The translations under genes were made by a program, and so were the position numbers. Positions 2,517 through 32,921 of a stretch of DNA of 37,770 nt are shown here, piece after piece (the first letter of the stretch is position 1; each line of letters begins with the position of its first letter). A model generated the notes under the pieces. It was not told where the DNA came from and made no database searches. It worked only from the letters and a program-made list of their open reading frames with translations. Location of the stretch: NCBI GenBank assembly GCA_003551495.1, contig PUMT01000149.1:1-37770 (forward strand), read 5' to 3'. The stretch is from Bacteroidota bacterium (lineage in GTDB: Bacteria; Bacteroidota; Bacteroidia; Bacteroidales; PUMT01).

Positions 2517-3584
2517 TCAAGGCCTGTATCTTGCTTCATTCAATATTTTCTGGTAATCATGGTTATTCATAAACTCCTCAAGTGTAACGTCTGGGTTCCT
2601 TCTCATATATGATTCGGCAATCTGCCATCCAAGCCACACCACAGCTCTTGCAGGAGATTCCCTTGTGAACTCTGAAGTAAAGGGGCCATCATTTATAAAC
2701 CTGCTGATATCTCTCTTGTTTGTAGAAAACAAAAGGCGGTTCTCAACAAGGTAAGTCCACATCACATCTTCGTTATTCCGGCACCATTCAAGCTGCGGAC
2801 TGGTAAAACCGGTTATCAGCGTATCATGTTGATCTGGCAGCATCATCTTTTTAAAATACATAATGCGGCCGTGATATATCATATTGGATATCAAATTGTC
2901 AACACTGTCTGCATATTCAAATTCAGTCAATGCCCAGGCTTTCATGCAGTCTGATACTACCTTGCCAGGGTGCATTTTCATTTGCTTGTACCTGGGTATA
3001 TGAAGCTGATCATAAAACTTATGCCCTTCCCCAAGATACTTGTCAAGCCCAATTGCAAGAATGCTCTCAGATGTTGCAATTGACTGGTTAAACCCTGCAA
3101 TAAAGGTATAAACAGCCGGAACGGTATAGCCGGGGAAAAAGTATTTGTATCTCCTGAAAGCCTCTGAAAGTCCTGATTCAATATCCTCCAGATCCGGGAA
3201 CACCTCTTTTACCTCCATCTGCAACTGATGTATATCATAGTCAGTCAGAAAGCTTCTCAGATTACTTTCGTATGCAGGTGAACCGGGATTGCCAATTCTT
3301 ATAATGAGATTATTATATATTTCAAAAAAATCGCCATACTTCTCCTGCAAATTTTTAACCTCCTCATCAATATTTTCCAGATCAAGATTTAACAGATCTT
3401 TTTCCAGGCGCTTTATCTCAATATTTGCTTCAATACCTGATAGATCCACCCTGCTTCTGTCAGAGGGAGCACAGGAAAAAAACAGAAAGGCAAAAACAAA
3501 TGGCATTACAAATAATGAACCAGGAAAGAGAATCTTTTTATGCAGGATAAATCTTTCAATTACGAAAAAACCTCTCATACTCAC
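2517..3584 (-). CDS. gldB: GldB-like gliding-motility lipoprotein
   Basis: A lipoprotein of the Bacteroidota GldB family, needed for gliding and type IX secretion in Flavobacterium; its biochemical role is unknown. The 355-residue product has a basic, hydrophobic N-terminus ending in a lipobox-like FLFFSC with Cys38 as the likely acylation site, so the mature protein would be membrane-anchored on the periplasmic side. The C-terminal segment SPARAVVWLGWQIAESYM (about 315-332), followed by a TLEEFM motif, is characteristic of GldB. The start could be Met1 or Met3. In flavobacteria gldB is often near nadE; here nadE lies about 1.3 kb away on the opposite strand with an outer-membrane protein gene between. 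SprA is encoded in the same window, supporting a gliding/T9SS role. Family call is from recognised motifs; function is by analogy. Confidence 0.85.
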   Translation of the reverse strand: MSMRGFFVIERFILHKKILFPGSLFVMPFVFAFLFFSCAPSDRSRVDLSGIEANIEIKRLEKDLLNLDLENIDEEVKNLQEKYGDFFEIYNNLIIRIGNPGSPAYESNLRSFLTDYDIHQLQMEVKEVFPDLEDIESGLSEAFRRYKYFFPGYTVPAVYTFIAGFNQSIATSESILAIGLDKYLGEGHKFYDQLHIPRYKQMKMHPGKVVSDCMKAWALTEFEYADSVDNLISNMIYHGRIMYFKKMMLPDQHDTLITGFTSPQLEWCRNNEDVMWTYLVENRLLFSTNKRDISRFINDGPFTSEFTRESPARAVVWLGWQIAESYMRRNPDVTLEEFMNNHDYQKILNEARYRP

Positions 3585-6658: not shown

Positions 6659-7360
6659 ATGCAGAATACTTTATATATATGTGATAATTGCATTGACAAC
6701 CGTTTGTCAATCTTTAATTCCCTTTCAGTCAGGGAAAAAGAGATCCTGTCGCGTGATCACAAATGCCTGGAGTACAAAAAAGGGGATATTATTTACCTGG
6801 AAGGTGAAAAGCCCACCGGCTTGCTTTGTCTTTCATCAGGAAAGGTTAAAATTTACAAGGAGGGAATAGGCGGAAGGGAACAGATAGTTCGAATGGCTAA
6901 ACCTGTTGGGTTTATTGGATACAGGGCACTTTTTGCAGAAGAAAACTATATGGCATCTGCCGTTGCAATAGAAGATTCCAAAATATGTGTGATTAACAAA
7001 AATATGCTTTTCCAGGTTCTCAGAACCAACAGCGGTCTTTCGCTGAATATTATCAAATCATTTGCAAGTGAACTGGGTTTCTCAAACAGTCGCACTGTCA
7101 CACTTACACAGAAGCATATACGTGGCAGACTGGCTGAATCACTTATTTTTCTAAAAGAAACATACGGGCTTGAAGAAGACGGCAAAACCATTAAAGTTTA
7201 CCTCTCAAGGGAAGATCTGGCAAGCCTTTCAAATATGACAACCTCCAACGCAATCAGGACATTGTCAAACTTTGCATCGGAGAATGTTATTTCAATTGAC
7301 GGCAGGAGAATAAAGATAATTAACCCTGACAAGCTCGAAATAATAAGTGAAAGAGGGTAA
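6659..7360 (+). CDS. Crp/Fnr-family transcriptional regulator
   Basis: A 233-residue DNA-binding regulator. Residues about 20-130 form a cyclic-nucleotide-binding-like beta roll (EYKKGDIIYLEGEKPTGLL, then GREQIVRMAKPVGFIGYRAL), followed by the dimerisation helix. A C-terminal Crp-type winged helix-turn-helix follows, with LSREDLASLSNMTTSNAIR at about 181-199. Cysteines are at 8, 11, 36, 57 and 110. The N-terminal Cys8-x2-Cys11 pair recalls FNR, but the full four-cysteine FNR pattern is not obvious, so oxygen sensing by an Fe-S cluster is not supported. A TAAATTTG -7-like box lies at 6609-6616 without a clear -33 box. The gene converges with the alanine racemase gene, leaving one base between the stops. 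Its target genes are unknown. Confidence 0.9.
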   Translation: MQNTLYICDNCIDNRLSIFNSLSVREKEILSRDHKCLEYKKGDIIYLEGEKPTGLLCLSSGKVKIYKEGIGGREQIVRMAKPVGFIGYRALFAEENYMASAVAIEDSKICVINKNMLFQVLRTNSGLSLNIIKSFASELGFSNSRTVTLTQKHIRGRLAESLIFLKETYGLEEDGKTIKVYLSREDLASLSNMTTSNAIRTLSNFASENVISIDGRRIKIINPDKLEIISERG

Positions 7361-7361
7361 A

Positions 7362-8873
7362 TCAGCCTCTCACAAAGACACGCCTGACCCTGCGCGAAAC
7401 TCCGGTAAGAACCTCATATGGAATTGTTTCCAGAACATCTGCCATTTTAATGATATTATTACTCTCTCCGAACAATATTACCTCATCGCCTTCGCAGGCA
7501 TCAATCCCTGTTATATCTATAATGCATGAATCCATGCATATATTTCCTATGACCGGGACAGGTTTGCCTTTCACAATCACCTCCCAGTTCCCGTTTCCAA
7601 GCTTCCTGTTCAATCCGTCAGCATAACCTGCAGCACCAACAGCAATCTTCTGAGGCCTGCTTACCCTGTGTTTCCTTCCATACCCCACTGAATCGCCTGG
7701 CTGCAGATGTTTGATCCGGCTAATTCTGCTTTTGAGAGTACACACATTTTGCAAAGTGTTATTTTCCAAAGCACTTACACCATACATGCCTATACCAAGC
7801 CTGATCATGTCAAATCCGTAACCGGGGAATCTTTCAATCCCGGGAGAATTGAGAATATGTCGCAACACCGGATAGCCAAGCCCCTTTTCAATCCTGTCCG
7901 ATAGCCCGGCAAACTTCCCAAACTGCTCCAAAGTAAATTCATCATGCTGTGGCTCATCTGCAACAGAAAGATGTGAAAAAACGGATCTGACAGTAATTCT
8001 TTCGAGTTTCTTGCATTCTTCAATAAGCCTGTCAACTTCACAGGGCAAAAAGCCAAGGCGGTGCATTCCGGTATCGAGTTTCAGATGTACGGGATAATTT
8101 TCAATGCCTTTATTTTGAAGTACTCTGTTAAAAAGTGTCAGTCCCCTGAAACTGAAAAGTTCCGGTTCAAGATCATAATCTGTTAACCGAAAAAATGAAT
8201 CAGGATCAGGACTCATAACAAGAACAGGAAGTTTAATCCCGGCTTCCCTAAGTTCCACTCCTTCATCTGTATATGCAACGGCAAACAGATCTGCCTGATG
8301 GTCTTCAAGGAAAAAGGGGATATCAAATGAACCAATACCATAACAAGAAGCCTTTACAACAGCAATGAGCTTTGCGGGTGTTTCAAGACAGCTTCGGAAA
8401 TATTCAACATTTTCTCCAAGACTGTTCAGGTTTACTTCAAGAACTGTATTATGGGTTTTATTTTGGAGCTGTTGCAATATTTGCTCCATTTCATCACTGG
8501 GATGCCCGCATATAAGTATCGCTTCATTTTTGAATTTCCCGGTTGTGAAATTATTTGCAAAACCGGCCGGGGACAGGTGGTGCTCAACTTTTGCCCTTAA
8601 AGGGACTGAAGTCGGTGTGTTGCGCATCCCGGCCAATACCAGTCTTTTGATACCTTTATCATTTAAAAAAGCGGCAACTTTTTGCCACCAGTTTTTATTG
8701 TAACCTGAAAGCCGGTCAGGCTCAAACAATACTACAGTTTTTTCAGCATACATTCTCTGCCGGGAAAGCAATTCAAGAGAGGCGAAAACAGAAGACACAT
8801 CGGGGTAATGCCTGTTTAGCAGAACAGTGCAATTGTTAATGCCTTCCTGCTGTTCAATTTTAAATTCAGCCAT
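7362..8873 (-). CDS. alr: Alanine racemase with a remnant MurF C-terminal domain (truncated MurF-Alr fusion)
   Basis: A PLP enzyme converting L-alanine to D-alanine for peptidoglycan. Counting from the TTG at 8903 (513 residues), the PLP lysine is Lys184 in AVVKASCYG and the second catalytic base is Tyr408 in DSVGYGRKHRV. MHRLGF (280-285) and GNICMDS (453-459) are also conserved. The first 150 residues are not racemase: INNCTVLL, then NEAILICGHPSDEMEQIL, match the last domain of the MurF half of the Bacteroidota MurF/Alr fusion. The MurF substrate and ATPase domains are absent, and the DSYN motif expected near 28-33 reads NRHYP, so ligase activity is not expected. I prefer the ATG at 8873 (503 residues, MAEFKIEQQEGINNC), which starts at the domain boundary; the longer frame needs a TTG. 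It diverges from the gene at 9034. Confidence 0.9.
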   Translation of the reverse strand: MAEFKIEQQEGINNCTVLLNRHYPDVSSVFASLELLSRQRMYAEKTVVLFEPDRLSGYNKNWWQKVAAFLNDKGIKRLVLAGMRNTPTSVPLRAKVEHHLSPAGFANNFTTGKFKNEAILICGHPSDEMEQILQQLQNKTHNTVLEVNLNSLGENVEYFRSCLETPAKLIAVVKASCYGIGSFDIPFFLEDHQADLFAVAYTDEGVELREAGIKLPVLVMSPDPDSFFRLTDYDLEPELFSFRGLTLFNRVLQNKGIENYPVHLKLDTGMHRLGFLPCEVDRLIEECKKLERITVRSVFSHLSVADEPQHDEFTLEQFGKFAGLSDRIEKGLGYPVLRHILNSPGIERFPGYGFDMIRLGIGMYGVSALENNTLQNVCTLKSRISRIKHLQPGDSVGYGRKHRVSRPQKIAVGAAGYADGLNRKLGNGNWEVIVKGKPVPVIGNICMDSCIIDITGIDACEGDEVILFGESNNIIKMADVLETIPYEVLTGVSRRVRRVFVRG

Positions 8874-8958
8874 AAAGGTGAAATAATTTCTGCGGGACAA
8901 CAACTGCCGGCTTATAATAATCTACATTAAAAGCAGGATAATTTATTCACATAATTGT

Positions 8959-8974
8959 TACCTTTGCAAAGGTA
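8959..8974. promoter_or_regulatory. Palindromic overlapping divergent -7 boxes
   Basis: TACCTTTGCAAAGGTA is a perfect 16-base palindrome. Read on the plus strand it gives TACCTTTG (8959-8966); on the minus strand it gives TACCTTTG (complement of 8967-8974). Each is an exact TAnnTTTG -7 box. It lies between the alanine racemase gene (minus, about 90 bases away) and the gene at 9034 (plus, 60 bases away), so it could start both transcripts. A clear -33 TTG is not visible on either side. Confidence 0.55.
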
Positions 8975-9033: not shown

Positions 9034-9813
9034 ATGTCTTCAAAAAATTATGAAATAAAGTTGTCACGCAAACTCAGGGAACTGGAGCTGGTTATGAAAA
9101 ATATAACTGAATCAGCTAATCCTGATAATATCGACATTGACATTGCACTTGAAAAAACAAGGGAGATCTATTCAATGCTTCTTATTATCAGAAATGACAG
9201 CAGCAAAAAAGAGGATGAGAAAAGGGAGGGGGATGAAGAAAAGTCTCCTGTGCCTGCAGACCCTGAAGTTACCGAAAGTGAAGCCGGCCGTTTTTTTGAA
9301 GTAGAAAACAGGATCCCGGGTATCTCCGACAAGGAAAAAAAAGACCTGGAGATTGAAGAAGAAAGTGAAACACAATTGGAAGAACCTGACAGGAAGGAGT
9401 CCGGTGAAAAAGATAAAGAAGAGGAGAATATGCGTAAAGACGAAGATACGGGAAGTGAAAATGGCAAAAAAAGGAAAGCGGATATACTGGCGGACAAGTA
9501 TACTGATTCACAAAACCATGTTAACGAGGCTCTTGCTGAGAAAAGAAAGGGCGACAACATTACCAGCCGTTTGCAGAACCGGCCTATCAGAGACCTCAGG
9601 GACTCCATAGGACTGAACGAAAAATTCCTTTTTATCAGAAAACTTTTCGGCAACAATCCGGATACATACAATCAGTGTATTGATTTTCTCAATAATGCAT
9701 CATCTTACCAGGAGGCTGAGGATTACCTGAAAGAAAGTTTCAGCTGGGATGAAGACAATGAAATTGCTGAAAAGCTTTTTAATCTTGTAAAACGCAAGCA
9801 TCAGAAAGAATAA
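9034..9813 (+). CDS. Conserved Bacteroidota protein with acidic linker, function unknown
   Basis: A 259-residue protein, probably cytoplasmic (no signal or membrane segment). It has three parts. Residues 1-55 are helical with heptad-like hydrophobics (KLSRKLRELELVMKNI). About 56-150 is an extremely charged Glu/Lys/Asp-rich, likely disordered linker. About 150-259 is a folded C-terminal part containing DILADKYTDSQNHVNEALAE, RPIRDLRDSIGLNEKFLFIR and a helical tail. The C-terminal part resembles a hypothetical protein I recall as common in Bacteroidales beside rsmI or murF/alr; no function is known to me. It starts 60 bases after the palindromic promoter shared with the racemase gene and ends 10 bases before rsmI, so the two are probably co-transcribed. 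Confidence 0.8.
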   Translation: MSSKNYEIKLSRKLRELELVMKNITESANPDNIDIDIALEKTREIYSMLLIIRNDSSKKEDEKREGDEEKSPVPADPEVTESEAGRFFEVENRIPGISDKEKKDLEIEEESETQLEEPDRKESGEKDKEEENMRKDEDTGSENGKKRKADILADKYTDSQNHVNEALAEKRKGDNITSRLQNRPIRDLRDSIGLNEKFLFIRKLFGNNPDTYNQCIDFLNNASSYQEAEDYLKESFSWDEDNEIAEKLFNLVKRKHQKE

Positions 9814-25508: not shown

Positions 25509-28500
25509 CTATTGTATTAAGGTAAATCTCAGGCTAAAGCCTATATTGGTATTGGTTGTGGGATATGAAAGGCTTACTATGGGCCTGTTAATTGCCCTGT
25601 CCATAAAAAATCTCACATCAACCCGGTTGCTTATTACATAATCGGCAGAAGCCTTTATGGAATAGATTGTCTGGCCTGCAGTTGGCTGAACGCCATCTTC
25701 AGCAAGCTTCCGGATCACAGTAAGATTTTCCCTCATTGAAAAATCTGCCCTCACATTCAGATCGCTCCTCAATTCCCTCTGGCCGTCCCTTGTACGGTAA
25801 ACAATCTGTAAATCCCTGAACCTGTACCCCATCCCTATAGATATCTCTTCACTTCTGATCTCCGATATCTGGTTGTTGGCAAAACTAAGCGAAACTGTTC
25901 GTGATTTGTTGAACTGAGCTCTTGTAGTAAGGTTGTTGTTCCATGTTATATCAATATTTATAAGCGGGTTGAACTGCTCATTTATCACAACAGATGATAT
26001 GTTGTAGCGGGGCATAAAATTCTCCTGCATCTTGTCCCTTACATAGCTGAAACCGTCATCTTGCTCAAGATAGCTGAAGTTGGTCATATAGCTTGAAATA
26101 CTGTAGGTTGACCTGAAAGCATGGTTTATATTGGCTGATTGTACAAGCCTTTCTATCAAAGGTATTCGCGCCAGTCCGTCATACGTTATCCTCCAGTTGG
26201 GCCATGGTATAAGGGGAAAGTTTTTAAGGCTTACCCCGGCAGGGTCGAATCCTCCGTATGCCGCAAGGAAAGAGGGTATAAGCACATCCTGGGACAGGCT
26301 CCCATATCCGTCAGGGAATCCGTCACTACCGGTTTCTCCGGGATCATAGCTTCCTGCCCGGCCTCTTCTGTCAGCCAGCCTTTCAGCAACAACAATCCTG
26401 TAATCCTTAAAGTTGCTGAAGGCCTGAGAATAATAGCCATTTCTGCTTGAAACCCTTTCGAAGGCCGTCCCCAGGGAAATAAAACTCATACTGAAGTTCC
26501 CTGATGTCATCCGGCTGGAGGATTTGAATTCACCATGCCTGTCAGCCACAAAATACTCGCTGCTGTTTTCCCCGAAAGTGCGGCTTGCTGTAAGATCTAT
26601 CCGCAATCCGTTAACAGGCTCGATCGTACTCCTGAGGTTAAAGGTATTACTGTAAGTCATTAAGAATGGTTCATTAAGGGTAGTGTCTGTTGTAAGCCAT
26701 CCTCTTTCGATCGCCCTGTAAGGGAAATCTGCGTCCTGGTAACCGAAAATGAACGGAAAACCGGGTGCAAAAACATTATTGATCCGTTCCTGGCCCATAA
26801 TACTCGTGCCCGGGAGATATCCGGGCAAAAGGGTGCCTTCCGACTGTGAAAATGATACGCTTATATTCCTTACAGCCATCAGAAGCCTGGCCCCGCTCAG
26901 TGCAATCTGCCTCATTGCGGTTTGTCTTACCTCAACCGTACCTTCAACAATAATAGTAGCCCCCTCAACATCCCTGTCAGGTGTGAAGTTCAACCTCCTG
27001 TTGCTGACTATTTCGGTGCTTCCCCTGACCGGCCTGCCACTGCTGTCCAGAACCCTCACAGAAACTTCTTCTGTCGATAATCCGTGGTTAACCGAAAAAG
27101 GCTCACCCGCAGTCATATTTACATTCTCTCTTTCATGACGCACCCTTCTCTGCTGGGGTTGCTGATCATCCCGGCCTCCAGATCCCCGCCTCCTGTTTGC
27201 TTCACTCAGAAATTCCGATTTATTGTACAGGTTGACCAGGTTGAACTGGGTATTCATTTGGGCGGTATTACTGTTCCGGATCCTGTTTCCGAGGTTTATA
27301 TCAACTGTATCCGGAAGTATCGGACCTGTATCCCACCCATATGTGGTGTTGTAGCGCACAGTAGAAGATATCCAGTTCAGGGCCGGGATTTTGTTGATCG
27401 GAAGAGTGTAGGTCAGATTTGCGCTATGGTGATACCTTGTGTTGCGGCCGAAATTCCTGAGGTTCACAAGAACCGAATCTTTCCAGGCATCGTATCCGTG
27501 CGGGTCTTTTTTCCTGTCCACAATACCCTCAGGCTCATCGATCCGTGCAGTATTGTTCGCTGAAAACTCAAGCCGCAGTTGCCGTGTAAGGTCAAAATTG
27601 ACATCATAATACCTGTTCCACATAAAGTCCTTTTGATATGAAGGAATTATCAGGAAATCGGGATTGTTGATGTTCCTTTTCTGCATTGCATTGTAGTGGC
27701 GGTCAATATCGCTCCTGAAAGAAATGTAGGATGGAAGGTAATAAAAATTGAAGTCCCTTATGATCCTTAATGATGGACTGCTCAATATATCCCAGTTACT
27801 GAACGGTGCAACATTTTCCGTCCTGGGTGAATAGGAGTAGTTCAGCGACCCCCTGTAAAATCTTTGAATATTGTATTCGGTATTGATATTTCGGTAATAT
27901 GATTCATTATAGGCCAGACTGAGTGACCAGTTTGATATGCTGTAAAACCTGGAGGGACTCTCCTGCGGTGAGATCTGCATATTGCTCAGGTTCATGCTTC
28001 TGCGGCGTGAATAATCTATCGACAGGTCTCTTATTGAATCGCGCTCCGATCTTGTCGCAGCCCTGTCAAGAGCATCCTTCAATGGCACATCCGGATCGAG
28101 CGGATTGAACTGAGGCAGTATATAGCCTTCCGAAAACCCAAAATAGAGAGGCATCCTGATCCCGAAATGGTCGGGGAAAAACCTGCCAAACTCGAAATTT
28201 GAAGATATATCATACTGATAAAGCTGCTCCTGGCTCCGTTCGTTCACTTTTTTTTCTATACTTCCAAAACCGGGAGTTACCGAGGAACCGGCCACGGTTA
28301 TATTTCCGAAATCCGAAAGCCTGGTTGACATACGCAAATTACCTGCCCATCCGCCCTCCTGATTAAAGTCTGTCAGCCTCAGTTCATTAACCCATACCTC
28401 TCCCGATTTGGGCAAACCGTCATCACTGCCGAATGGGTTATTATCCATTGACGGGTTCCTTATCCCTATCATGATAGTCCTGATATTGCTGAGGTTCGGA

Positions 28501-31500
28501 TTACCAACAACTTTCACCCTGTTGTCGCCGTCCATCTTTGAAAAAACAGTTCCTGTAGTTACACCTGAACCCGCCTGGTTAAGCATCTCATTCCTGAGCT
28601 GTTTAACCTGGTGAAATATTTCCAGCTCTACATTAAGGCGGTTTTCTTCTGGCCATACTATCCGGCGGTGTTCCACATTGTCGTTGTTGTACCTTCCCGG
28701 TGGTGTTACCCTGAGAGGTATTTCATATTCATAGTAATTATTCCTGTAGTCGGTTCCCATCCTTATGAAAACTGTAAGCTCGTTATCCTGCAAAGACTCC
28801 CCGGGCAGAGCGGCTGCATGGACTTCCATCTGTATCCTCCTGTACTGGCGAATATCCAGATTAACATTTCTGAAAGCAGCCCTTGCAATTCCGTCCTCCA
28901 GATCCTGCACCTTAAGCAGCATTGATTGTTCATTGAGTTGCTGCAACTGTGGATTTTCCGGATCTATTACCCTGTCAATGCCGGGAGGCAAGACGTAGTT
29001 GACAGGAGTTTTGCTTGCATTTTCCTCGATATTGACAGCTGAAATATCAAAATACCCTTCTCCGGTTTCCGGCGGGTCTATACCTTCGGGGTCGTCGACC
29101 AGGAGCTCATTGTACCTTCTCCACTCACTCCTTACCAGATCAAGTTTAGCAAACCTCATGATAACAGGCTCCTCGAATCCGGTAAGGAACATTCTCATAA
29201 ACCGGATGGATTTGAAGTCCTGTATAGGGCCTATCCGGTCTTCAAAATCTGATAAAGGGATCCTCACCTGGTACCAGTTAACAGACGACTGCTCACCGTT
29301 TGGGAATTTCACGGTAGTCCGTACCGAGTCAACAACATAATTTTCGCCTACCCTCATATCTTCCGGACGTATGCTGATCCTGTACTGGTAATAAGCCTCA
29401 AGCTTGTTCAGTGTGTTGTCGCGGCTTATATCTTCGGTATTGGGAAGTGAGGTGGCAGAAGTAGGGTAAGGTTCGGGTGACTGACCAGATGTAGGTGAGT
29501 TGCCTTCCATGCCGTTGTAGTACTTGTAGCGTGTGAGGATGTCAGCCTCTTTTTCATCCCACTGCCTGCCCCTGAAGTACCTGTAATTGTCTGTTGAAGG
29601 ATCTTCAAAGGCAAGTTCAAAAGCACGGGAGCCCTCCCCATGTATCTGTGCAATTTCATCAAGGTAGTCGCTGAAAAATGATCGCTCATCCTCGGTTCTG
29701 AGCCCGTCCAGACCTACATCCTGGTATTGCCTTGCTTCGGGGTTGTTGTCAAATGCGTTGACAAGCGATTGCTGTGTCGGCACTCTCCCCCATGCGGTAG
29801 TATCTACATTAACAACATCTGCAGTTGGCGGCAGACCGTTCTCGAAACTTTTACGTCCATCCTTCAGAATGTCCTCCGAAACGTTGCCAAGGTTTATATA
29901 AAGATCTCCCCCGGAATGTTCTTCATCGTAAACAAACGGGTCCATCAGCCAGAACTCCACATACTCAATATTGGCAGTTTCAAAATCTGTTGTATGCAGG
30001 GAACGCATTATCCCTCCCCATCTTGAGGCGGGATCATTCATATAGCCGTCTGAATCAACACCTGCTGAATAGGTTGATGGTGATGCATCATAATTGTAAG
30101 GGCCCCTCTCATTGGGATAAAATGCAAGGTTAAGAACAGGTATGTTGGTAGGAATGCCCCTTGGTGTTTCCCTCTCAGGAAACAGTTCGTTTTCGAAAAC
30201 CTCCCGCACAAAATGGTTGGACTGCAGGTCGGGATTATTTCTTATGTGATCAGGTGTTGCCGAGGTGTTTCTTAAAAAAAGCGGGTCAATAATGTACCAT
30301 GCCAGTCGTGCCCGGTTGAACCCATATGCAAGGTCGTTTGTCAATGAAGCTTCGGGGAAAAGCGCCTGTCCGTCGGGTGTGCTGGATATTACCCATGCTG
30401 TAGGCGACTTGAGGTCGATAGTTGTTTTGGTGGCTTCAAAGTCATCAATATAAGAAACACCTGCACTCCCCAGGGCGCGTGAATGTCCCGGTATGAGATG
30501 TGCAAATTCGCCCTGGAAAGAAATGGTTGAAGGGCCGGAAGTGTTCAGAAGTGGTATTCTGTCAACAAGACTGGTAAGAAATCCTGATTCTGCCCTGTAG
30601 GAGGTATTGAGTCCCCAGATGGTATTGGAAATCGATTCTTCCCCGTAAACTACCTTTTGTGTCAGCGGGCGTTCTGTCATATTGAGTATTGTAGCGCCAA
30701 TATTGAAATTGTCTGACACCTGGTAATCAAGGTGGGAGCCGATAAGTGTCCTGGTTTGAAGATCAAACAATTGCTGGCTCTCAAGGGATATCCTGATGGG
30801 AGCACCGGAATCGAGCAGCCCCTGATTTATAATCTGCACCCTGCCCAAAGAATAATCCACCGTATAATCAATATTTTCTACCAGCTCTATTCCCCCGGCA
30901 GTAACTTTGACCGACCCCCTCGGCACATTCATTGCATCCAGGGATATCTCGGAACCGGAAGAAGACCTGTAATGGCCTGAAAGCAGGAATTTATTCTTTT
31001 CAGCTATCTGCCTTGCCCTGGTCTTTGTTGAATCATAAAGCTCCTGGAAAACAAACCTGTCAGCCACAGCATCGTCACCTATCTTTTCCCGCAGGTGTGA
31101 TCCGAATGGCTCAAGCACGGGGAAAACTATACGGCCGTTTGCAGGTTGTATCGTAACTCCCTCTATAAAATCGAATACCCCGTCAGGGTAAGGTTCCAGT
31201 TGGGAATTCAGATTGTCGAGGTTCATTACCTGGAGCAGTGTTTTATCTCCTGTTGCACCATCAGGCAGATAATTGATAGCGTTCCCGGTATTGTCGTCAA
31301 TATAAAGGATATCGAGATGAAAATCCTGGCGTTCCACCTGCCATGCATCGATTGCGTATATGTTTTTCATCATCAGGTCCCATGTAGGCAACCTGGGAGA
31401 AAGGCTGGTGCCTTTAAGAAGCTTGACTACCAGAGCTTCGGGGGCACTTACCCCATCAGTTGAAAACTCCCCCACCTGATATGTTTCACCATCAAGTGTA

Positions 31501-32921
31501 TATTCAAATGCAACTGCCAGTACCTCGTCGGCATTCAGGGCACTGTTGAGAGAAATATAGCCCAGTTGTTTGTTGAAAGTGTATTCGCGTGAAGAAAGCC
31601 GTCTGGCATTTTCAATAACTTCGTAATCTGTGCCTATTGAGAAGTCGGGTATTGCCTGAAGGGTTGTTGTAACCTGGTTAATATTCCTGATCTCCCCGTA
31701 GGTGGTTATCATCTGCTCATAAAGGTCGTTAAGTTCATTCCTTGGATAATTCCCCTGCAGCGAAAAGTCCCTTGAAAAGTTGCCGTCAGAATAGATATTA
31801 TTTTCGTCCTCGGCCAGGTCAACAAAAGCCACAATATTTCTGGAATCGTCAAAATTGCTTGTTTTGTTGGTAATCCAAACCTCCAGTCTCGTTATATTGA
31901 TACCGGTTCTTATAACAGGCAGATTTCTGAGCGTCTCCTCATAAGTATCCCTGAAGTATTTTGAAAGGAAAAAATGCCTGTTTGCATCATAATCATCGGC
32001 AAAAACTTCAAACTCTTTTCTGTGGGCGCCTCCCCTTACTTCAATCACTGATGATTCACCTTTTTGCTGGGAAAATACGTTGGTAACGGAAAGCCTTCCG
32101 AACTGAAGCTCCGTTTTTATTCCAAAAAGACTCTGGCTTCCTGTGATAAGTGTACCGGGAAGAGGCAGGGTAACATTTCCGGCTTCAATTCTTCTTACAA
32201 TTTCATCTTCGGTACCGGTATATTCCAGTCTGGTCTGGTTTTCAAAATCGAAAGTTGCCTCGGTATTGTAATTGACTCCCAGCTTAAGCTTGTCGCCTAC
32301 CGTTCCCGTTACATTCATCTGGATCTTTTCCTGAAAGTCAAAAGTGGTTGTTCTTCTGAGCTCTTCCTGAATATCAGGCCGCTCATTTTCCATAATGTTT
32401 ACCCCAAAAATAAGCTCGGCAGAGCCCTGTGGCTGAATATCCACCACATTGCTTCCGAATATCTGGTCTATTGACTCACCTCCTATATTTAATATGTCAA
32501 TCAGTGATTCTCCTGCTTCAGGAGTGCTGCCCCTCGACCTGCTCTGCCAGTATTTACCCAGTTGCTGATCCATTTTATAATTCCTGTACTCCTGAAAAGT
32601 CATCACCGAAGGTCTTCCTACCCTCAGGTTCCCGGCCTGCCGGTAAAAAAGATATTTGTTCAGCAACGGATCATATTCGGTTACAACTGAAAAGGGAGAA
32701 GGAAGGCTGAGGGGCCTGGAGGGCGGATTAAGCAATGAAAGTGATGGATTGAAACCGGTATTCAGATAGTGTTGACCTTCCTGTGTTGGGAAACCATACC
32801 CAGCTTCCCCTGAGTTTTCGTTAGCTGTAACATTGAGCGGAAGCAACAGAAAAATGAAAATTCTGAATGACACCCATTTAAAATACTTTACATCCCCAAC
32901 CTGCCAGATACAATTATTCAC
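25509..32921 (-). CDS. sprA: Type IX secretion / gliding motility outer-membrane translocon SprA (Sov)
   Basis: SprA forms the giant 36-strand outer-membrane barrel through which T9SS substrates leave the cell. The 2470-residue protein is in the usual size range. After a hydrophobic export signal (FRIFIFLLLPLNVTANE) come the SprA N-terminal motifs, for example TFDFQEKIQMNVTGTVGDKL and TGSQSLFGIKTELQFG. Near the C-terminus are DKMQENFMPRYNISSVVI and FNPLINIDITWNNNLTTRA, both typical of the family, and the chain ends in a beta-strand, GFSLRFTLIQ. The start is GTG at 32921, directly overlapping the ruvA stop (TAGTG), with AGAAGG seven bases upstream. A second GTG at residue 17 would give a more compact signal peptide. 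It is continuous, with no frameshift seen. gcvH follows. Confidence 0.96.
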   Translation of the reverse strand: MNNCIWQVGDVKYFKWVSFRIFIFLLLPLNVTANENSGEAGYGFPTQEGQHYLNTGFNPSLSLLNPPSRPLSLPSPFSVVTEYDPLLNKYLFYRQAGNLRVGRPSVMTFQEYRNYKMDQQLGKYWQSRSRGSTPEAGESLIDILNIGGESIDQIFGSNVVDIQPQGSAELIFGVNIMENERPDIQEELRRTTTFDFQEKIQMNVTGTVGDKLKLGVNYNTEATFDFENQTRLEYTGTEDEIVRRIEAGNVTLPLPGTLITGSQSLFGIKTELQFGRLSVTNVFSQQKGESSVIEVRGGAHRKEFEVFADDYDANRHFFLSKYFRDTYEETLRNLPVIRTGINITRLEVWITNKTSNFDDSRNIVAFVDLAEDENNIYSDGNFSRDFSLQGNYPRNELNDLYEQMITTYGEIRNINQVTTTLQAIPDFSIGTDYEVIENARRLSSREYTFNKQLGYISLNSALNADEVLAVAFEYTLDGETYQVGEFSTDGVSAPEALVVKLLKGTSLSPRLPTWDLMMKNIYAIDAWQVERQDFHLDILYIDDNTGNAINYLPDGATGDKTLLQVMNLDNLNSQLEPYPDGVFDFIEGVTIQPANGRIVFPVLEPFGSHLREKIGDDAVADRFVFQELYDSTKTRARQIAEKNKFLLSGHYRSSSGSEISLDAMNVPRGSVKVTAGGIELVENIDYTVDYSLGRVQIINQGLLDSGAPIRISLESQQLFDLQTRTLIGSHLDYQVSDNFNIGATILNMTERPLTQKVVYGEESISNTIWGLNTSYRAESGFLTSLVDRIPLLNTSGPSTISFQGEFAHLIPGHSRALGSAGVSYIDDFEATKTTIDLKSPTAWVISSTPDGQALFPEASLTNDLAYGFNRARLAWYIIDPLFLRNTSATPDHIRNNPDLQSNHFVREVFENELFPERETPRGIPTNIPVLNLAFYPNERGPYNYDASPSTYSAGVDSDGYMNDPASRWGGIMRSLHTTDFETANIEYVEFWLMDPFVYDEEHSGGDLYINLGNVSEDILKDGRKSFENGLPPTADVVNVDTTAWGRVPTQQSLVNAFDNNPEARQYQDVGLDGLRTEDERSFFSDYLDEIAQIHGEGSRAFELAFEDPSTDNYRYFRGRQWDEKEADILTRYKYYNGMEGNSPTSGQSPEPYPTSATSLPNTEDISRDNTLNKLEAYYQYRISIRPEDMRVGENYVVDSVRTTVKFPNGEQSSVNWYQVRIPLSDFEDRIGPIQDFKSIRFMRMFLTGFEEPVIMRFAKLDLVRSEWRRYNELLVDDPEGIDPPETGEGYFDISAVNIEENASKTPVNYVLPPGIDRVIDPENPQLQQLNEQSMLLKVQDLEDGIARAAFRNVNLDIRQYRRIQMEVHAAALPGESLQDNELTVFIRMGTDYRNNYYEYEIPLRVTPPGRYNNDNVEHRRIVWPEENRLNVELEIFHQVKQLRNEMLNQAGSGVTTGTVFSKMDGDNRVKVVGNPNLSNIRTIMIGIRNPSMDNNPFGSDDGLPKSGEVWVNELRLTDFNQEGGWAGNLRMSTRLSDFGNITVAGSSVTPGFGSIEKKVNERSQEQLYQYDISSNFEFGRFFPDHFGIRMPLYFGFSEGYILPQFNPLDPDVPLKDALDRAATRSERDSIRDLSIDYSRRRSMNLSNMQISPQESPSRFYSISNWSLSLAYNESYYRNINTEYNIQRFYRGSLNYSYSPRTENVAPFSNWDILSSPSLRIIRDFNFYYLPSYISFRSDIDRHYNAMQKRNINNPDFLIIPSYQKDFMWNRYYDVNFDLTRQLRLEFSANNTARIDEPEGIVDRKKDPHGYDAWKDSVLVNLRNFGRNTRYHHSANLTYTLPINKIPALNWISSTVRYNTTYGWDTGPILPDTVDINLGNRIRNSNTAQMNTQFNLVNLYNKSEFLSEANRRRGSGGRDDQQPQQRRVRHERENVNMTAGEPFSVNHGLSTEEVSVRVLDSSGRPVRGSTEIVSNRRLNFTPDRDVEGATIIVEGTVEVRQTAMRQIALSGARLLMAVRNISVSFSQSEGTLLPGYLPGTSIMGQERINNVFAPGFPFIFGYQDADFPYRAIERGWLTTDTTLNEPFLMTYSNTFNLRSTIEPVNGLRIDLTASRTFGENSSEYFVADRHGEFKSSSRMTSGNFSMSFISLGTAFERVSSRNGYYSQAFSNFKDYRIVVAERLADRRGRAGSYDPGETGSDGFPDGYGSLSQDVLIPSFLAAYGGFDPAGVSLKNFPLIPWPNWRITYDGLARIPLIERLVQSANINHAFRSTYSISSYMTNFSYLEQDDGFSYVRDKMQENFMPRYNISSVVINEQFNPLINIDITWNNNLTTRAQFNKSRTVSLSFANNQISEIRSEEISIGMGYRFRDLQIVYRTRDGQRELRSDLNVRADFSMRENLTVIRKLAEDGVQPTAGQTIYSIKASADYVISNRVDVRFFMDRAINRPIVSLSYPTTNTNIGFSLRFTLIQ

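Follow-up and report, generated by a model that had tools for sequence, protein, structure and literature searches.

A gene in the window (the whole 37,770-nucleotide stretch of DNA analysed) encodes what is best read, from its sequence, as a complete, ordinary PLP-dependent alanine racemase with about 140 added N-terminal residues derived from MurF. The MurF half of an ancestral MurF/racemase fusion was probably redundant and catalytically dead. An in-frame deletion spared only its C-terminal domain, which is probably kept as a passive structural appendage. The source genome (G000) is a draft in 275 contigs and is probably metagenome-assembled.

The open frame 7362–8903 on the minus strand is real. 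The ATG at 8873 is the likely start, because the eight codons that begin there agree with the beginning of the full-length fusion carried by a relative of the same genus (G001). In particular, 20 of the 24 bases are identical between the window (ATGGCTGAATTTAAAATTGAACAG) and G001 (ATGGCTGATTACAAAATAGAACAG). A TTG at 8903 was also considered as the start and was dropped on the basis of this match. The features of the locus are collected in Table 1.

Table 1. Features of the racemase locus in the window.
Feature	Position	Strand	Remarks
CDS, MurF C-terminal remnant plus alanine racemase, 503 aa	7362..8873	-	Start codon ATG at 8873; stop codon at 7362
Surviving 5' end of the former MurF half, MAEFKIEQ (G001: MADYKIEQ)	8850..8873	-	First eight codons
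MurF C-terminal domain remnant, residues about 9-142	8448..8849	-	Profile matches; NDSYNSD, LSD and KG[SA]R lost
Alanine racemase N-terminal (barrel) domain, residues 147-367	7773..8435	-	Pfam
Alanine racemase C-terminal domain, residues 377-499	7377..7745	-	Pfam
PLP lysine K174	8352-8354	-	In racemase barrel domain
Catalytic tyrosine Y398	7680-7682	-	In racemase C-terminal domain
Deletion junction, with about 319 codons fewer than in G001	8844..8861	-	Short imperfect repeat ATTGAACAG / ATGGAGCAA
Palindrome TACCTTTGCAAAGGTA, formed by a pair of divergent, overlapping -7 boxes of Bacteroidota type (TAnnTTTG)	8959..8974	.	Perfect, 16 bases
Divergent neighbour (MSSKNYEIKL..., no Pfam match)	9034..9813	+	Orthologues adjoin the racemase gene in G001, G002 and G006
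Convergent Crp/Fnr-type regulator	6659..7360	+	Family by inspection; orthologues adjoin the racemase gene in G001 and G002

The racemase half is complete, as the initial annotation had stated. Both Pfam alanine racemase domains (PF01168 and PF00842) match within residues 147–499, at 1.6e-51 and 3.2e-40, and the alanine racemase model TIGR00492 matches over its full length at 295.2 bits, against a curated cut-off of 168. The motifs VVKASCYG and VGYGRKH align with VVKAFSYG and IGYARAH, K174 and Y398 are invariant in the racemase alignment, and 78 of the 84 highly conserved columns are kept. The roles of this lysine and tyrosine, like those of the P-loop and the carbamylated lysine of Mur ligases, are established. 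The protein shares the complete fold, the PLP lysine and the catalytic tyrosine with the TIGR00492 racemases, and differs from them in its extra N-terminal residues. A second alanine racemase paralogue (L123:1478-2629, G000:C70; 384 aa, 29% identical) lies elsewhere in the source genome and is also present across most of its family.

The N-terminal extension is the C-terminal domain of MurF. A profile search with the N-terminal 152 residues, as the initial annotation had suggested, aligns them with positions 319–468 of 822 in NCBIfam NF008897 (bifunctional MurF/Alr; 7e-19) and with positions 291–418 of 418 in the MurF model TIGR01143 (9e-4). A profile built from the C domains of 53 intact fusions of the order, selected by the P-loop GSNGKT, matches the extension at 2.5e-18, and none of the shuffled controls passed the threshold. 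The window protein scores below the membership cut-offs of both families: 561.7 bits versus 804 for NF008897, over profile positions 319–821 only, and 18.3 bits versus 288.6 for TIGR01143, in the C-terminal part only. The remnant aligns to an intact reference fusion over residues 326–459. This intact fusion aligns with the solved MurF structures 4cvk and 1gg4 over nearly the whole MurF length, whereas the remnant lacks their ligand motifs and the ATP-binding middle domain. Both AlphaFold models, of the full protein (mean pLDDT 34.7) and of the N-terminal 152 residues (55.4), are of too low confidence to be used; in a Foldseek search, no hit fell below 0.001 and the leading hits included no Mur ligase.

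The ligase motifs are gone from the remnant. All 53 intact fusions have a lysine at the carbamylation position, and NDSYN, TNIGxAH and KG[SA]R are nearly always present. In the window protein, NDSYNSD reads LNRHYPD, an alteration already noticed in the DSYN motif, and KG[SA]R reads CGHP; 9 of the 26 conserved C-domain columns are kept. The P-loop, the carbamylated lysine and TNIGxAH are absent together with the whole middle domain. No MurF N-terminal or middle domain was found elsewhere within the window, and every match of a Mur_ligase_M search of the source genome is assigned to another gene. The earlier description as a non-catalytic Mur domain agrees with these losses, and the remnant presumably performs no chemistry and binds no MurF substrate.

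The tree and the neighbouring genes make the gene an orthologue of the MurF/Alr fusion (NF008897/PRK11930), in descent and not in function. It has the same racemase half, the same C-domain position and the neighbours of the same-genus fusions. It differs in having neither the N-terminal nor the middle domain of MurF, and none of the ligase motifs that were compared.

The codons that follow the first eight match G001 about 319 codons downstream. The minus-strand TAnnTTTG box lies 101 bases from the ATG in the window, 102 in G001 and 109 in G006. The retained first codons, the jump and the promoter spacing together show one in-frame internal deletion, which removed the N-terminal and middle domains of MurF and left the promoter, the leader and the start codon. 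The initial annotation was correct in proposing a settled domain loss and not a frameshift, and the promoter-like palindrome that it noted upstream consists of two divergent boxes. Its statement that no MurF relic remains upstream does not hold, since the first eight MurF codons survive with the start codon and the promoter. As the palindrome would be a shared divergent promoter, the two genes may compete for polymerase. Farther away, the window carries gliding/type IX secretion genes, namely GldB (2517-3584) and a 2470-aa SprA homologue (25509-32921).

Relatives in the same genus retain other stages of decay. Between the orthologues of the regulator and the divergent gene, the locus holds an 824-aa frame in G001 and a 702-aa frame in G002. 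The MurF half of G001 is full-length and degenerate: the lysine at the carbamylation position is replaced by glutamate, TNIGxAH reads TGTELIL, NDSYNSD reads YDRYCPD, and the P-loop is reduced to GKT. In G002, the carbamylation lysine is replaced by histidine, the P-loop reads GNAGVE, and the C domain is absent. The racemase tree groups the three genomes (99/98), with the source genome and G001 as sisters (100/98) and G002 basal. The R and PD of the altered motif are common to the source genome and G001, so the decay would be older than their split. The degenerate halves of G001 and G002, with their placement in the tree, indicate that the ligase died before the deletions: it decayed first, and different pieces were deleted later in different species. 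The G001 fusion (L008:523-2994) still scores 822 bits, versus the NF008897 cut-off of 804, despite having largely lost the MurF catalytic motifs. The model calls this degenerate protein bifunctional, which is a likely misannotation and a warning for annotation.

Across the order, which its named near relatives suggest to be Bacteroidales, the racemase orthologue is present in nearly all of about 390–400 genomes, usually as a fusion of 810–890 aa. As a rule, the fusion is full and its motifs are intact. Racemases that carry the C domain only occur in four families: that of the window, f18 (G032, L116), f77 (G091, L141; G194, L142) and f99 (G212, L143). Same-genus relatives of the latter three (G113, G296 and G358) have frames of 826–830 aa. 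NDSYN is lost in these forms too: DTNLY, NSENN or NNENN, and DKRAF stand in its place in f18, f77 and f99. The C-only forms start at residues 326–330 of the reference fusion, that is, within four residues at the border where the middle domain gives way to the C-terminal one; the start codon of the f77 and f99 forms falls on the Met of the conserved AMRLE. On the tree, the C-only label needs three changes, of which well-supported branches force two; its branches do not separate f18 from f77. Comparison of gene structures across related genomes, as initially proposed, thus confirms the domain loss and shows that the window's case is not unique: the C-only architecture arose in at least two, and probably in four, families. 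The cut at one domain border is thus a repeated route from a fused to a single enzyme.

Other lineages have lost other parts. The C domain is lost, and the N-terminal domain with all or part of the middle domain kept, in G002 and in G257 and G393 of family f41. In the f41 proteins (L145, L146), the P-loop and the carbamyl-lysine are retained, whereas the middle domain is incomplete and the C domain missing; the fused MurF of this family follows a different route of decay. Full-length but degenerate fusions are present in G069 and G397 (f55), and racemase-only orthologues in f9, f11, f91 and perhaps f62. The counts leave out short frames explained by contig ends (G287, G348, G109, G144, G170) and short frames near a contig start (G176, G282, G241). 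A literature search under several names, with most subscription journals outside its scope, found no paper on the MurF-Alr fusion. MurB/MurC of Verrucomicrobium and MurC/Ddl of Chlamydia likewise place two cytoplasmic cell-wall enzymes on one chain (PMC4803751), but both halves are kept there, whereas the window protein has lost one.

Almost every genome of the order has a stand-alone MurF that shares about 25% identity with the fused one. Therefore, the fused MurF is a second copy. The source genome has the stand-alone murF that the initial annotation had proposed to look for. On contig C73, L006 encodes the C-terminal half of a stand-alone MurF, with motifs intact and cut by the contig end; on C33, L002 (13635-14999; L130) encodes a full-length MurF (369 bits versus the cut-off of 288.6). 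MurF genes of the L002 type (L131, L132, L133) are 84–88% identical within the genus, 67% in G041 of another family, and about 30% identical to the other MurF genes of the order; the type may have spread horizontally, and it is the only intact MurF found in G001. Among the other C-only genomes, G212 has a 437-aa stand-alone MurF, G032 has two pieces at contig ends, G091 has a 548-aa membrane-type MurF relative, and G194 has the same gene in two frames. MurF-like ligases of 525–548 aa with N-terminal membrane helices (L173, L174, L175, L176, L177) are found in f77, f55 and f26 genomes that are without the usual stand-alone MurF, and adjoin a ddl gene in L176 and L177.

Loss of the fused MurF is tolerated because nearly every genome, that of the window included, has another MurF. 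Most genomes with an intact fusion also have a second MurF; redundancy therefore permits the loss but does not on its own cause it. The initial picture of a fusion breaking apart holds in that MurF has been lost from the fusion. MurF was not split off as a gene, because the stand-alone MurF is an older separate gene across the order; the fused half decayed and was then deleted in place.

The remnant is relaxed but not free of constraint. The truncated architecture is common to G091 and G194, so their divergence is most simply later than the truncation. In this pair, the sole clean one for dN/dS and from a family other than that of the window gene, the C domain has dN 0.081, dS 0.354 and a ratio of 0.23, versus dN 0.015, dS 0.170 and a ratio of 0.09 for the racemase. 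The domain evolves faster than the racemase and is still constrained; simple counts reject neutrality of the C domain at 2e-5, and counts that allow for a strong transition bias do so at 0.003 to 0.02. Between the source genome and G001, the C domain has a dN/dS of 0.55/1.88 and the racemase one of 0.25/2.71, values near saturation in which the constraint may partly predate the deletion. In most degenerate lineages, the identity of the C domain falls 2.6 to 4.4 sd short of what is expected.

On these comparisons of genes and genomes, the fused MurF half probably first became redundant beside another MurF, then lost its catalytic residues, and was finally cut in frame to its C-terminal domain. 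The leftover folded unit beside the racemase would stay because it does no harm, or is of slight use as a passive cap or spacer, and because a second event would be required to remove it fully. A passive structural role is our best guess and is compatible with the constraint seen. The keeping or losing of whole domains fits selection for foldable pieces. The C domain is lost in G002, G257 and G393, and at least three families have racemase-only orthologues, which argues against a general need for it; that sister lineages can do without the domain speaks against an essential role.

It is somewhat unlikely that the domain is a roleless relic, a neutral intermediate toward a MurF-free racemase in which constraint reflects avoidance of misfolding only. 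The racemase-only orthologues of f9, f11, f91 and probably f62 would be the end point of such a course, and the remnant does evolve much faster than the racemase. However, it outlived the split of G091 and G194 with a dN/dS of about 0.23, and all four C-only cases retain the whole domain, not fragments.

The initial annotation had also suggested that the remnant docks a separate MurF. As a docking or regulatory module, it would bind this MurF, or Ddl or a ligand, and couple D-alanine supply to precursor synthesis. Each C-only genome does contain another MurF gene, whole or in pieces, and some constraint on the remnant remains. An analogy is offered by the MurC/Ddl fusion of Chlamydia trachomatis, whose Ddl activity reportedly requires the fused structure (PMC4803751, citing McCoy and Maurelli 2005). 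The idea is nevertheless very improbable, as none of the four lineages keeps the motifs that contact MurF substrates, sister lineages, some with a racemase only, can do without the domain, and it evolves fast. That a chimera or collapse in the draft of 275 contigs removed the MurF half is hardly credible, given that the deletion keeps the frame, falls on a domain border and leaves the promoter, the start and the neighbouring genes in place, the junction repeat of about nine bases is shorter than assembly words, the C domain itself has lost catalytic motifs, and two independent f77 genomes have the same architecture.

These related genomes form a natural replicated series, from full fusion to dead ligase, to one domain, to none. 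The series makes two questions testable: why two MurF genes, one of them racemase-fused, persist in most of the order, and whether a dead domain beside an enzyme is kept for structure. We think it unlikely that the MurF C domain has been repeatedly recruited as a working part of the racemase, as a dimer stabiliser or a sensor of cell-wall metabolites; if it has, independent lineages would have converged on a new two-part enzyme, MurF_C-Alr.
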